Source: Caldovatus sediminis (GTDB taxonomy: Bacteria > Pseudomonadota > Alphaproteobacteria > Acetobacterales > Acetobacteraceae). Taken from it: a DNA stretch of 64,000 nucleotides. The translations under genes and the position numbers were made by a program. Within the stretch, counting starts at the first letter, position 1. Each line of letters opens with the position of its first letter. The notes under the pieces were generated by a model, which saw only the letters and a list, made by a program, of their open reading frames with translations, did not search any database and was not told the DNA's origin. The stretch covers positions 186,001-250,000 of the forward strand of contig NZ_BMKS01000002.1 of NCBI RefSeq assembly GCF_014644455.1, read 5' to 3'. This document shows positions 58,201 to 63,478 of this stretch, piece after piece.

Positions 58201-59703
58201 TCAGCCGGCCATCGCCTCCTCCTTCTTCTTGCGCAGGTTGGGCAGCGCCATCAGGCCCAGCGCGATCGCCGCGATCGCGAGCAGCGTGCCGCTGATCGGC
58301 CGCTCGACGAACACCATCGGGTCGCCGCGGCTCAGCAGCATCGCCCGGCGCAGGTGCTCCTCCATCATCGGGCCGAGCACGAAGCCGATCAGCAGCGGCG
58401 CCGGCTCCATCCGCAGCTTGGCGAACAGGTAGCCGGCGATCGCGAACAGCACCGTCAGGTACACGTCGAACACGTTGTTGTTGATCGAGTAGACGCCGAT
58501 CGAGCAGAAGATGAGGATCGACGGATAGAGGTAGCGGTACGGCACCTGCAGCAGCCGCACCCACATGCCGATCATCGGCAGGTTGATGATCAGCAGCATC
58601 ACGTTGCCGATCCACATCGAGGCGATCAGGCCCCAGAACAGGTCGGGCTGCGCCTCCACCATGCGCGGACCGGGCTGGATCCCCTGGATGATCAGGGCGC
58701 CGACCATCAGCGCCATCACCGCGTTGGACGGGATGCCGAGGGTGAGTAGCGGGATGAAGCTGGTCTGCGAGGCGGCGTTGTTCGCGGATTCGGGTCCGGC
58801 GACGCCCTCGATCGCGCCGGTACCGAACTCGTGCCGGTTCTTGCTCACCCTCCGCTCCATCATGTAGGAGCCGAAGGAGGCCAGCGCCGCGCCGCCGCCC
58901 GGCAGGATGCCGAGGACCGAGCCCAGCGCCGTGCCACGCAGCACCGAGGGGATGGACCGCTTCACCTCCTCTCGCGTCATGTAGAGGCTGCCGACCTTGA
59001 CGGTCAGCGCGGAGCGCGCCTCGGGCCGGTCGAGGTTCAGGATGATCTCGGCGATGCCGAACATGCCCATGGCGAGGGCGGCGAAGTCGAGGCCGTCCGA
59101 GAGTTCCGGGATGCCGAAGGTGAAGCGCTGCTGGCCGGTCTGCACGTCGGTCCCGACCAGGCCGAGCGCCACGCCCAGCACCACCATGCCGATGGACTTG
59201 ATCACCGAGCCCTGCGCGAGGACCGCGGCGATGATCAGGCCGAGCAGCATGAGCGAGAAGTAGTCGGCCGGGCCGAAGGACAGCGCCACCGAGGTCAGCA
59301 GCGGGCCGGAGGCGGCCACCAGCACGGTCGCGACCGATCCGGCGAAGAAGGAGCCGAGGGCCGCGACGCAGAGCGCCGCGCCCGCGCGCCCCTTGCGCGC
59401 CATCTTGTAGCCTTCGAGCGTCGTGACGACGGCGGACACCTCCCCCGGCAGATTCAGCAGGATCGAGGTGGTCGAGCCGCCGTACTGCGCGCCGTAGTAG
59501 ATGCCGGCGAGCATGATGATGGCCGTCGTCGCCGGCTGCCCGAAGGTGATCGGCAGCAGCAGCGAGATCGTCGCCACCGGCCCGATGCCCGGCAGCACGC
59601 CGATCGCGGTGCCGATCATGCAGCCGATGAACGCGAAGAGGAGGTTCTGCCAGCTCAGCGCGACGGAGAAGCCGTGGGCGAGATTGGCGATGAGCGATTC
59701 CAT
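58201..59703 (-). CDS. tctA: TctA large permease of a tripartite tricarboxylate transporter
   Basis: The 500-aa protein has about twelve membrane helices. GCMIGTAIGVLPGIGPVATISLLLP, YYGAQYGGSTTSILLNLPGE, LGILPGGGAALASFGSYM and ESANNAASQTSFIPLLTLGIPSNA are the classical TctA signatures. It is the last gene of tctC-tctB-tctA and is followed by an intrinsic terminator. Transport is secondary and cation-driven with the periplasmic receptor TctC. Confidence 0.96.
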   Translation of the reverse strand: MESLIANLAHGFSVALSWQNLLFAFIGCMIGTAIGVLPGIGPVATISLLLPITFGQPATTAIIMLAGIYYGAQYGGSTTSILLNLPGEVSAVVTTLEGYKMARKGRAGAALCVAALGSFFAGSVATVLVAASGPLLTSVALSFGPADYFSLMLLGLIIAAVLAQGSVIKSIGMVVLGVALGLVGTDVQTGQQRFTFGIPELSDGLDFAALAMGMFGIAEIILNLDRPEARSALTVKVGSLYMTREEVKRSIPSVLRGTALGSVLGILPGGGAALASFGSYMMERRVSKNRHEFGTGAIEGVAGPESANNAASQTSFIPLLTLGIPSNAVMALMVGALIIQGIQPGPRMVEAQPDLFWGLIASMWIGNVMLLIINLPMIGMWVRLLQVPYRYLYPSILIFCSIGVYSINNNVFDVYLTVLFAIAGYLFAKLRMEPAPLLIGFVLGPMMEEHLRRAMLLSRGDPMVFVERPISGTLLAIAAIALGLMALPNLRKKKEEAMAG

Positions 59704-59733: not shown

Positions 59734-60180
59734 TCAGCGGAACTGCGGCCAGACGCTGACGCGGATGTCGAGCTCGTGGATGAACACCCACCAGCACAAT
59801 GCGAGCAGGAAGACCGTCACTCCCAGGACGCCGAGCGGCCTGTGCGAGCGGTCCGCCAGGGAGGCGATGCCGATCATCGCCGCGGAGGAGAGGAACAGCC
59901 CGCCGCGCTCGAGCAGCAGCCCGAAGGTGCACATGCCGAGCAGCACCAGCGAGATTTCGCGCCAGGCCCAGCGCTCCAGCGGGTCGGGGCCGCTGAACAG
60001 CGCCATGGCGGCGATGACCGCGCCGAGGGCGAACAACAGCATGAAGGTGAGCCAGGGCATGTAGCCGGGCCCCATGCGCCGCGCCGTGCCGAGCGCGTGA
60101 TCGGTGTTCAGCCACAGCCCGATCAGGGCGATTCCGATGAAGATCAGGCCGGAAAACAGGTCCTTTGCATTCACCCTCAT
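59734..60180 (-). CDS. tctB: TctB small permease
   Basis: The 148-aa protein has four membrane helices and the start MRVNAKDLFSGLIFIGIALIG typical of TctB, then ARRMGPGYMPWL, the most conserved stretch of the family. ATG 60180 is preferred over an upstream in-frame start because it opens this conserved sequence. It lies 30 bp before tctA. Confidence 0.92.
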   Translation of the reverse strand: MRVNAKDLFSGLIFIGIALIGLWLNTDHALGTARRMGPGYMPWLTFMLLFALGAVIAAMALFSGPDPLERWAWREISLVLLGMCTFGLLLERGGLFLSSAAMIGIASLADRSHRPLGVLGVTVFLLALCWWVFIHELDIRVSVWPQFR

Positions 60181-60255
60181 GTCGCTTGGTCCTTCATCGC
60201 CGGCGTGGCCGGCACACCGAGTTGCCACCGATTCGCAACGCCCCGCACGGCCGGT

Positions 60256-61290
60256 TCACTCGGCCGTTGCGCCGGAGGCCCGCACCAGCGCCGCCCAGCG
60301 CGCGTGCTCGTCGCGCACGAACTCCGCGTAGGCTTCGGGCGTCATGTCGCCCGGCGTCCCGCCGGTCTCGATCAGCCGCGCCCGCACCTCCGGCGCGGCC
60401 AGCGTCGCGCCCACCGCGCGCGCGAGCCGTTCCACGGCCGTCGCCGGCAGGCCCGCCGGCCCGGACAGCCCGAACCAGCTCCCGCTCACCAGGTCGAAGC
60501 CCTGCTCGCGGAAGGTCGGCACTTCCGGGAAGCCGGGATGCCGCTCGGCCGAGGACATAGCGATCGCCCGCACGCTGCCCTGGCGGATGTGGGCCGAGGC
60601 GGAGGGCAGGCTGTCCGACATCAGCGGCACCACGCCGGCGATCACATCGGTCATCGCCGGCCCCGCGCCGCGGTAGGGGACGTGGTTCAGCTCAACCCCG
60701 GCGAGCTGCGTGAACCGGACGACCAGCAGGTGGTTGGACGAGCCCGCGCCGGAGGTCGCGATGTCGAGCCCCCGGCCGGAGCGGGCGCGACGTACCACGT
60801 CGGCCAGGCTGTGCAGCCCCGAACGCGGATTGGCCACCCACACCGAGGGGTTGGAGACGACCAGCGCGATGTGCGTGAAGTCGCGCACCGGATCGTAGCG
60901 CACATTGGCGTAGAGCGCCGGGCCGATCGCATGGCTTGCGACGTTGCTCATCACCAGCGTCGTGCCGTCCGCCGGGCTCGACGCGACGAACTGGCTCCCC
61001 AGCGTCGCGCCGGCGCCCGGCCGGTTCTCGACCAGCACGGGCGTGCCGCCCAGGCGCTCCTGCATCCCGGCGGCGATCAGCCGCGCGACGAGGTCGGTCG
61101 TGCCGCCCGGGGCGAAGGGGACGACGACGCGGATCGGCTGGCCCGGCGCCGGCCATGCGGGCGCGCCCGCGCCGGCGCGCTCTGGCGGTTGCACATCGGA
61201 TCGCTGGGCGTGCGCTCGCGCCGCGACGGTTCCCGCCAGCAGCGCAGCCGCATTGAGCATGCCCCGGCGCAAGAGCCGTCCCGACATCAT
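60256..61290 (-). CDS. tctC: TctC periplasmic receptor of the tctCBA transporter
   Basis: The roughly 344-aa Bug-family receptor has a signal peptide ending at AHA (about residue 27), then a short linker and PAPGQPIRVVVPFAPGGTTDLVAR, VENRPGAGATLGSQFVA, VPYRGAGPAMTDVIAGVVP and VPTFREQGFD. Two ATG codons (61290 and 61287) follow a GGGAGGA site directly. It is divergent from the M20 hydrolase gene, and two operator-like palindromes lie between them. The M20/creatininase neighbours suggest an amide- or imide-type carboxylate ligand. Confidence 0.94.
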   Translation of the reverse strand: MMSGRLLRRGMLNAAALLAGTVAARAHAQRSDVQPPERAGAGAPAWPAPGQPIRVVVPFAPGGTTDLVARLIAAGMQERLGGTPVLVENRPGAGATLGSQFVASSPADGTTLVMSNVASHAIGPALYANVRYDPVRDFTHIALVVSNPSVWVANPRSGLHSLADVVRRARSGRGLDIATSGAGSSNHLLVVRFTQLAGVELNHVPYRGAGPAMTDVIAGVVPLMSDSLPSASAHIRQGSVRAIAMSSAERHPGFPEVPTFREQGFDLVSGSWFGLSGPAGLPATAVERLARAVGATLAAPEVRARLIETGGTPGDMTPEAYAEFVRDEHARWAALVRASGATAE

Positions 61291-61354
61291 TCCTCCCTGG
61301 GCGCGCGAGCGTATGGCACGCGGCCGACTTGGCCGACAAGGCACGCCGTCTTGC

Positions 61355-61370
61355 ATGAAAGAATGTTCAT
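61355..61370. promoter_or_regulatory. Operator-like palindrome 1 (tctC / M20 region)
   Basis: ATGAAAGAATGTTCAT shares the pattern ATGAAA-N3-TGTTCAT with a second site exactly 40 bp away. The ends ATGAA and TTCAT are inverted. A further dyad GAAAGA...TCTTTC overlaps it. A repressor controlling both divergent units is likely. Confidence 0.6.
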
Positions 61371-61389
61371 CTTTCGACAAGGCGTCGCA

Positions 61390-61418
61390 TTGGAATGAAA
61401 TTGTGTTCATAAATAAGA
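61390..61418 (+). promoter_or_regulatory. Possible promoter for the M20/creatininase operon
   Basis: TTGGAA (61390-61395) and ATAAGA (61413-61418) are 17 bp apart, 79 bp before the ATG. The second operator-like palindrome fills the spacer, so binding there would block this promoter. The call rests on box similarity only. Confidence 0.4.
61395..61410. promoter_or_regulatory. Operator-like palindrome 2 (tctC / M20 region)
   Basis: ATGAAATTGTGTTCAT keeps all 13 fixed positions of the first site (61355-61370). The 40-bp centre spacing is close to four helical turns, which would let two dimers bind the same DNA face. No regulator gene is adjacent in the window. Confidence 0.6.
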
Positions 61419-61496
61419 AATGGTCTGTACATGTCGCAGCGTGCTGGTACTGCCGACAGGCCGGGACTTTCACCGCCGGCCGGCCGAGGAACCTCC

Positions 61497-62672
61497 ATGC
61501 TCCCCAACGACCCCGCCCGCCGCATCCGCGACGCCGTCGCCGCCGTCGAGCCGCGCCTCCTCGCCCTGCGGCGCGACATCCACGCCCATCCCGAACTCGC
61601 CTTCGAGGAGACGCGCACCGCGGGAATCGTCGCCGCCGAACTCGCGCGCCTCGGCATACCCCACCGCACCGGCGTCGGCCGCACCGGCGTCGTCGGCATG
61701 ATCGAGGGCGGCCGGCCCGGCCCGACCCTCGCCATCCGCGCCGACATGGACGCCCTGCCGATCCAGGAGGAGACGGGCCTGCCCTTCGCCTCCACGCGGG
61801 AGGGCCGGATGCATGCCTGCGGCCACGACATCCACACCGCGACGCTGCTCGGCGTCGCCGCGGTGCTGAAGGAGCTGGCGCCCCAGCTCGCCGGCCGCGT
61901 CGCCCTCGTCTTCCAGCCGGCCGAGGAGGTGCTCGAGGGCGCCGCCGCGATGATTGCCGACGGCGCGGCGGAGGGCGTGGACCTCGCCCTCGGCTTCCAC
62001 AACCAGCCGGACATGCCGGTCGGCCGCTTCGGCTACGTCCGCGGCGCCTCGCTCGCCGCCTCCGACCGCTTCGACCTCGTCGTCCGCGGCCGCAGCGGCC
62101 ACGCCGCGCACCCCTACGCCGCGATAGACCCGATCGTCGCCGCCGCTTCCTTCGTCGCCGACGTGCAGACCGTGGTCAGCCGGGAGATCAAGCCGATTCA
62201 TGCCGCAGTCGTGACGATCGGCAGCTTCCAGGGCGGCACCACCTACAACATCATCCCGGAGCGCGTGCACCTGAAGGGCACGGTGCGCACCCTGCACGCC
62301 GAATCGCGCGACCTCGCCGAGGCCGCGATCCGCCGCCTCGCCGCCGGGCTGGAGACGGCGATGCGGGTCGCCTGCGCGCTCGACTACCGGCGCATGGTGC
62401 CGCCGCTCGTCAACGACGACCGCGTGCTGGAGCCGACGATCGCCGCGGTGCGGCGCCAGCTCGGCGACGTCGTCGAGGAGGGCGAGCCCTCGATGGGCTC
62501 GGAGGACTTCTCCGCCTTCGCCGCGCTGGTGCCGAGCTTCCAGCTCCGCATCGGCTCCGGCGCCCCGGGCCGCGAGGACCGCCTGCACAACGCCCGCTAC
62601 CAGCCGGACGAGGGCTGCATCGGCCTCGGCGTGCAGGCGCTCGCGCGCGCCGCGCTGGACATCCTGGCGTGA
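61497..62672 (+). CDS. M20-family amidohydrolase
   Basis: The 391-aa di-zinc enzyme is of the hippurate hydrolase/N-acyl-amino-acid amidohydrolase group. Metal ligands appear in MHACGHDIHTATLLG, FQPAEEVLEGAAAM and the later SMGSEDFSAF, and GRSGHAAHPYAAIDPI marks the lid domain. ATG 61497 gives the family N-terminus; an earlier in-frame start adds low-complexity sequence. Its stop overlaps the GTG of the creatininase-like gene, so two amide-cleaving enzymes are made together, next to a tripartite carboxylate transporter. Confidence 0.92.
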   Translation: MLPNDPARRIRDAVAAVEPRLLALRRDIHAHPELAFEETRTAGIVAAELARLGIPHRTGVGRTGVVGMIEGGRPGPTLAIRADMDALPIQEETGLPFASTREGRMHACGHDIHTATLLGVAAVLKELAPQLAGRVALVFQPAEEVLEGAAAMIADGAAEGVDLALGFHNQPDMPVGRFGYVRGASLAASDRFDLVVRGRSGHAAHPYAAIDPIVAAASFVADVQTVVSREIKPIHAAVVTIGSFQGGTTYNIIPERVHLKGTVRTLHAESRDLAEAAIRRLAAGLETAMRVACALDYRRMVPPLVNDDRVLEPTIAAVRRQLGDVVEEGEPSMGSEDFSAFAALVPSFQLRIGSGAPGREDRLHNARYQPDEGCIGLGVQALARAALDILA

Positions 62673-63478
62673 GCGCCCTGCCCGGGGCCGAGGCCCGCAT
62701 CGCCGCGCTGACCGCGCCCGAGGTCGCCGCGCGCCTCGCCGCCGGCGCCGCCGTGCTGCTGCCGATGGGCAGCCTGGAGACCCACGGCCCCGCCCTGCCG
62801 ATGGGCGACTACCTGATCGCCGAGGAGATCGCCCTGCGCATCGCCGGGGCCGCGCGCGCCGCCGGCGCCGACGCCCTCGTCGCCCCGGCCATCCCCTTCG
62901 GCGGCGAGGACTTCTTCGCCGGCGTCCCCGGCTCGATCTCGCTCCCCGGCGCGGTGCTGCAGGCGGTGATCGAGGAGATGGCCGGGTCCTTCCTGCGCGC
63001 CGGCACCACGCGCCGGCTGCTGATGGTCAACGGCCACGCCGGGAACATCCCCGCCGCCGAGGCCGCCGCCCGCGCCCTGCGCCAGCGCCACGGCGCCGTG
63101 GTGCCGGTCCTGCACGTCTGGCGCGCCGCCGGCGCGCTGCACGCCGAGCTCGGCGGCGATCCCGCCGCCCTCGGCCATGGCGGCGATCCGGTCGCCTCGG
63201 TGGCGCTCCATCTGCGCCCCGATCTCTGCCGGCCGGAGGCGGCGCGGCCGCGCCAGGCGACCGGCGCGCTGCTCGGCCTCGCCCCCACCGGCTTCGGCAC
63301 GGTGCGCGCCGCGGGGGTGGAGTTCGCCGTGCCGATGCAGGTCGAGGAGGTGGCCCCCGGCGGCGTGCAGGCGCCCGATCCGCGCGGCGCCTCCGCGGCG
63401 CACGGCGCGCGCCTGGTCGAACGCCTGGTCGCGGCGGGGGTCGCGATGCTGCAGGCGCTGCGCGACCACGCGCCCTGA
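62669..63478 (+). CDS. Creatininase-family amidohydrolase
   Basis: The 269-aa protein belongs to the creatininase family of metal-dependent amide and cyclic-amide hydrolases. LLPMGSLETHGPALPMGDYLIAEE and LLMVNGHAGNIPAAE carry the expected Glu, His and Asp metal ligands. The GTG at 62669 overlaps the M20 stop (GTGA). True creatininase, a formamide hydrolase of the MftE/ArfB type, or another imide hydrolase are all possible; the M20 and TctCBA neighbours suggest a catabolic role. Confidence 0.9.
   Translation: MSALPGAEARIAALTAPEVAARLAAGAAVLLPMGSLETHGPALPMGDYLIAEEIALRIAGAARAAGADALVAPAIPFGGEDFFAGVPGSISLPGAVLQAVIEEMAGSFLRAGTTRRLLMVNGHAGNIPAAEAAARALRQRHGAVVPVLHVWRAAGALHAELGGDPAALGHGGDPVASVALHLRPDLCRPEAARPRQATGALLGLAPTGFGTVRAAGVEFAVPMQVEEVAPGGVQAPDPRGASAAHGARLVERLVAAGVAMLQALRDHAP

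Follow-up and report, generated by a model that had tools for sequence, protein, structure and literature searches.

The divergent intergenic region between tctC and an M20 amidohydrolase gene in the window, the whole 64,000-nucleotide stretch of Caldovatus sediminis DNA analysed here, carries two copies of a nearly genome-unique dyad, TGAA-N6-TTCA, which recurs as a single copy at one position in the orthologous promoters of three genera. We consider it probable that this dyad serves the M20(-creatininase) transcription unit as its operator, bound by a dimeric protein that would repress it, with tctCBA possibly tuned by the same site. Judged from its sequence, the element is of an ordinary and well-known kind, a conserved operator-type site with an orphan regulator, duplicated in the window strain. 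The Acetobacteraceae have very many tripartite tricarboxylate transporters, mostly orphans as to both substrate and regulator. A clean operator at a conserved position can serve as bait in capturing the regulator, whose inducer would in turn name the substrate of the transporter-hydrolase pair.

Two copies of a rare dyad

An earlier note on this DNA had reported two ATGAAA-N3-TGTTCAT palindromes in an AT-rich island, and both 16-mers lie where it placed them, 40 bp apart from start to start (Table 1). The symmetry is not as it was described, since the palindrome is the even TGAA-N6-TTCA, with four perfect base pairs per arm in the window (five counting the outer A/T), and the difference between AAA and TGTTC in the two arms falls outside it. 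The island is borne out by a GC content of 38-50% over 61325-61449, compared to 75% for the window. Allowing up to three mismatches, there are seven strand-matches in the window where 0.42 are expected, a number reached in 0 of 100 shuffles. When the whole genome (4,797,000 bases) is scanned, ATGAAN6TTCAT without mismatch is confined to these two places, with 0.04 sites per genome expected from base composition, and one mismatch adds three more. The shorter TGAAN6TTCA has three genomic sites, two of them in the tctC/M20 intergenic region; base composition predicts 2.6.

To the left of the dyads, on the minus strand, tctC (which has a further in-frame ATG at 61290), tctB (starting probably at 60180) and tctA are followed by genes for a mannose-1-phosphate guanylyltransferase/isomerase and a short-chain dehydrogenase, while the M20 gene and the overlapping creatininase-family gene lie to the right on the plus strand. 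The absence of an adjacent regulator gene, already remarked upon in the earlier note, extends to the neighbouring proteins tested, to the called genes inspected in the next 14 kb rightward and to approximately 30 orthologous tctC/M20 loci, near which no regulator gene recurs. The neighbours that do recur at these loci are tctCBA, M20, creatininase, a 2-dehydropantoate-reductase-like gene, a sugar nucleotide enzyme and a short-chain dehydrogenase. The M20 unit itself varies, being M20-creatininase-PanE-like in Neoroseomonas, M20-PanE-like in Falsiroseomonas and M20-creatininase in Caldovatus (L039, L041, L045 and others).

Table 1. Features of the tctC/M20 region, in window coordinates
Feature	Coordinates	Strand	Basis or remark
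tctA	58201..59703	-	PF01970
tctB	59734..60228	-	PF07331
tctC, substrate-binding protein of a tripartite tricarboxylate transporter	60256..61287	-	PF03401 E=1e-56; orthologues in relatives
Candidate tctC promoter	61310..61340	-	CTTGTC (61340-61335), CATACG (61315-61310); alignments
Tandem unit 1	61334..61370	+	CGACAAGG...CTTGC-ATGAAAGAATGTTCAT; local alignment with unit 2
Operator-like dyad, copy 1	61355..61370	.	ATGAAAGAATGTTCAT; positional counterpart of the relatives' single copy
Tandem unit 2	61375..61410	+	CGACAAGG...ATTGGA-ATGAAATTGTGTTCAT; local alignment with unit 1
Candidate M20 promoter at copy 2	61390..61417	+	TTGGAA (61390-61395), 16-bp spacer, AATAAG (61412-61417)
Operator-like dyad, copy 2	61395..61410	.	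ATGAAATTGTGTTCAT; derived copy
M20-family amidohydrolase	61497..62672	+	TIGR01891 353 bits, above cut-off; PF01546
Creatininase-family hydrolase	62669..63478	+	PF02633 162 bits; overlaps M20 stop

Conservation of the dyad in relatives

The divergent tctC/M20 pair is kept in more than 30 Acetobacteraceae/Roseomonadaceae, the closest named relatives of the window genome being Caldovatus aquaticus and an Acetobacteraceae MAG. The intergenic region is compact in nearly all relatives and carries a pair of promoter-like elements that face outward, GCTTGC-N16-GTGCCATAC (or GCATGCCATAGG) on the minus strand and CTTGCC-N16-CTATGCT or CTACCATG on the plus strand; in the alignments the tctC element is conserved as GCTTGC...GCCATACG/GCCATAGG. 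In the relatives' M20 promoter, the 16 bp that separate the -35-like CTTGCC from the -10-like CTACCAT are taken up exactly by a dyad word of the ATGA...TTCAC type. This word is found in single copy in both other Caldovatus (ATGAAACAATGTTCAC, ATGAAACTTTGTTCAC), in 14 of the 14 examined members of g152, a Falsiroseomonas-type genus (mostly ATGAMNWMWTCTTCAC, looser in L059, L162 and L201), and in all three of genus g29 (ATGGAG....STTCAC or close), and further plus-strand N16 words in this set are ATGAAGACTTCTTCAC, ATGACCACTTCTTCAC and ATGGAGCCAACTTCAC. The earlier note had named conservation upstream of orthologous tctC/M20 pairs as its own test, and a dyad held at one fixed position in orthologous promoters of three genera is what one would expect of an operator, in support of its claim of an operator-like site in a divergent promoter. 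That the sites are a product of chance or a mutational relic without function, a view to which the lack of a known regulator and the weak promoter match in the window might lend something, is barely credible in the face of this conservation and of the genome-wide uniqueness.

The conservation is concentrated in the M20 spacer, whose mean pairwise identity is 0.79 in 18 dyad-bearing sequences, where the tctC spacer of equal length reaches 0.47 and the 8 bases that follow reach 0.49. At 11 Neoroseomonas-type loci, which retain both promoters and lack the dyad word, the M20 spacer falls to 0.42 with the -10 region at 0.78, and the tctC spacer is again at 0.47. On the M20 protein tree the motif state changes 3 times, versus 14 for shuffled labels. 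The symmetry is perfect in L040 (TGAAGA-N2-TCTTCA, with 6-bp arms) and imperfect in most g152 species, which carry TGAC in place of TGAA on the left. Positions paired across the dyad average 4.3 of 7, versus 1.8 after column shuffling (P=0.0007, a value that makes the case look somewhat too strong, since the 18 sequences are not independent of one another and the motif anchored their alignment).

These figures bear on whether the word is instead a feature of the promoter, such as spacer sequence, an extended -10 or DNA curvature, or a leader-RNA element, with no protein operator at all, which we regard as quite improbable. Part of the conservation does belong to the promoter, as the last two bases before the -10, AC, are also common in Neoroseomonas, and the region is AT-rich. 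However, one set of species shows almost no variation in ATGA...TTCA, which another set with the same -35 and -10 lacks, and the conserved word is dyadic. A leader-RNA element fits poorly with a dyad that lies upstream of the inferred start, hence outside the RNA, and with an intergenic region that matches no Rfam family. Among the Neoroseomonas-type loci, the leaders of L038, L042 and L044 have in common ATGTAA.CTGACGTTTCA, which follows the M20 -10 and may be another control element that has taken the place of the dyad.

A candidate operator of the M20 unit

In the reading we favour, where promoters, protein binding, repression, inducer and any effect on tctC are all inferred from sequence comparison, TGAA-N6-TTCA would be bound by a dimeric protein whose gene lies elsewhere in the genome. 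As the dyad fills the 16-bp gap between the -35 and -10 of the M20 promoter, the bound protein would exclude RNA polymerase, which makes repression the simplest reading, with some substrate of the tct/M20 pathway presumably relieving it. The protein may influence tctCBA as well, given a dyad centre at about -60 of the putative tctC start, and co-control of tctC in this manner is plausible. The two -35-like elements stand back to back with just 7-8 bp between them in most relatives, so that two polymerases at these promoters probably compete.

The earlier note had placed the second copy in the spacer of a possible promoter. From the window alone the case is weak, with no E. coli-type sigma-70 promoter there passing a consensus scan and only a poor match to consensus in the candidate itself, but comparison with relatives supports it, as the register equals that of their CTTGCC-N16-CTACCAT. 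Its broader proposal of a common regulator for uptake and degradation is less well supported. The site is internal to the M20 promoter and some 60 bp ahead of the putative tctC start, and Neoroseomonas has the same gene pair without the dyad. Additionally, L201 keeps the dyad though its M20 gene is without an adjacent close tctC homologue, which ties the dyad to M20 and not to tctC. A regulator of undescribed specificity with this single target could nevertheless use a shared site and back-to-back, mutually exclusive promoters to govern how one compound is taken up (tctCBA) and cleaved (M20/creatininase), with the duplication of the operator tightening the switch; we offer this tentatively, as a possibility with the odds against it.

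The site might also belong to an activator or dual-function protein that has tctC as its main target while shutting off M20, though we think this unlikely. Approximately 60 bp upstream of a start is where the polymerase alpha subunit is classically contacted, and the geometry is suggestive: copy 1 is centred on 61362.5, with the putative tctC -10 at 61310-61315 and the start near 61303, and the tctC -10 is separated from the dyad by 45-46 bp in most relatives, to which L057 adds one helical turn. However, most Neoroseomonas have a similar distance between their -35-like elements and no dyad, so that promoter architecture explains the distance, and a dyad that fits the M20 spacer exactly speaks for M20 as the target.

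Origin of the second copy

No second dyad copy is found in any relative examined. Tandem units 1 and 2 align over their length (CGACAAGG...ATGAAA...TGTTCAT) with a score of 33, compared to 25 for the best of 2000 shuffles, and the pair is most simply the product of a tandem duplication of about 40 bp that would have doubled the operator in the window strain. The spacing of 40 bp thus does not reflect a conserved design, nor is the pairing that the earlier note had remarked upon conserved. Copy 1 has kept the ancestral left flank CTTGC, with one base lost between CTTGC and the dyad and a poor -10, and in copy 2 TTGGAA-N16-AATAAG preserves the ancestral register and is a weak promoter match, so either copy may serve the working promoter. 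Paired operators are used by many repressors, and here two intact copies persist despite diverged flanks, as they might if the arrangement (40 bp, about 3.8 turns) had been selected to allow cooperative binding or looping. We find this improbable, with no relative having two copies, a spacing that is a non-integral number of turns, and a duplication that explains it.

The M20 leader (61411-61480) is about 50 bases longer than in most relatives, with 87 bases from dyad to ATG versus 15-50, and it resembles nothing in the rest of the genome or in 29 relatives. An insertion element as the source of the extra bases (61366-61485) was rejected, as the genome and the 29 relatives give only end matches of 24-30 bases.

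Candidate binding proteins and comparison with known systems

A PadR gene offered one lead to the regulator, as a near-identical dyad (TGAAGAAATCTTCA) lies upstream of it in one Falsiroseomonas (L135:4062-4463). It was rejected because this dyad is upstream only in two sister species, likely as a hairpin stem after the preceding gene, and is missing in both Caldovatus that carry the gene, and because co-occurrence fails, the gene being present in dyad-free Neoroseomonas and missing in many dyad-bearing species. At L135:3998-4017, in the gap that separates an RND-type gene from the PadR gene, GGATGAAGA-AA-TCTTCATCC forms a perfect inverted repeat and looks like a hairpin. This short PadR-family regulator is conserved in the family (71% identity in the window genome, G000:C1:68863-69237), and a conserved element around GATGCATCG...ATATTAG, some 40 bp upstream of the gene in L165-L169, is likely its autoregulatory site. 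A TetR gene with ATGAACGAACGTTCGT upstream (L005) was likewise set aside, its dyad AACGAACGTTCGTT differing from that of M20; the dyad ACGAACGTTCGT directly upstream of this TetR-family-like gene (L005:1501-1516; G000:C12:88752-88767) is probably its own operator. Of nine places inspected among the other TGAAN6TTCA sites of nine genomes, none recurs at the same gene as a regulon member would, the PadR hairpin excepted, and no paper with TGAAN6TTCA was found in the spellings tried. Activation of the MerR type, which uses an over-long promoter spacer of 19-20 bp, does not agree with the 16 bp seen here.

Among known boxes, the ARG box of ArgR, TGAAT-N4-ATTCA, which occurs in pairs about 21 bp apart, has the length and even symmetry of TGAA-N6-TTCA, but its inner T..A is not conserved in the dyad sites. 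PF01316 (Arg_repressor) is absent from 10 genomes, including all three Caldovatus, in a search with its control positive in 9 of 14. The box of KdgR and the IclR family, TGAAACAnTGTTTCA, is matched by the Caldovatus aquaticus site TGAAACAATGTTCA save for one T, but it is an odd dyad where ours is even, and its ACA-N-TGT is not kept in other relatives. A binder of the IclR, GntR, TetR or MarR type is possible, though no individual member of these families stood out.

The IolR/RpiR-family site of Caulobacter, GGAA-N6-TTCC, found in alphaproteobacterial catabolic promoters, has the GAA-N6-TTC core in common with the dyad and differs in its outer bases, G/C rather than T/A (PMC2597717). An HTH_6 (RpiR) protein is present in some Falsiroseomonas, but its absence from the three Caldovatus (G000, G001 and G002) and from G030, all dyad-bearing, led us to reject this family. 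The box of the LysR-type MetR, TGAAnnTnnTTCA, resembles our case in its arms and in its tandem sites within a divergent promoter (PMC5002191), but MetR/LysR boxes are TGAA-N5-TTCA (T-N11-A), while all dyad sites are T-N12-A with a gap of 6 rather than 5. The flanking elements CTTGCC and CTATGCT/CTACCAT of the relatives resemble the alphaproteobacterial sigma-70 consensus, CTTGAC-N17-CTATAT (PMC2873474), from which they differ in a spacer of 16, with the window copies deviating more.
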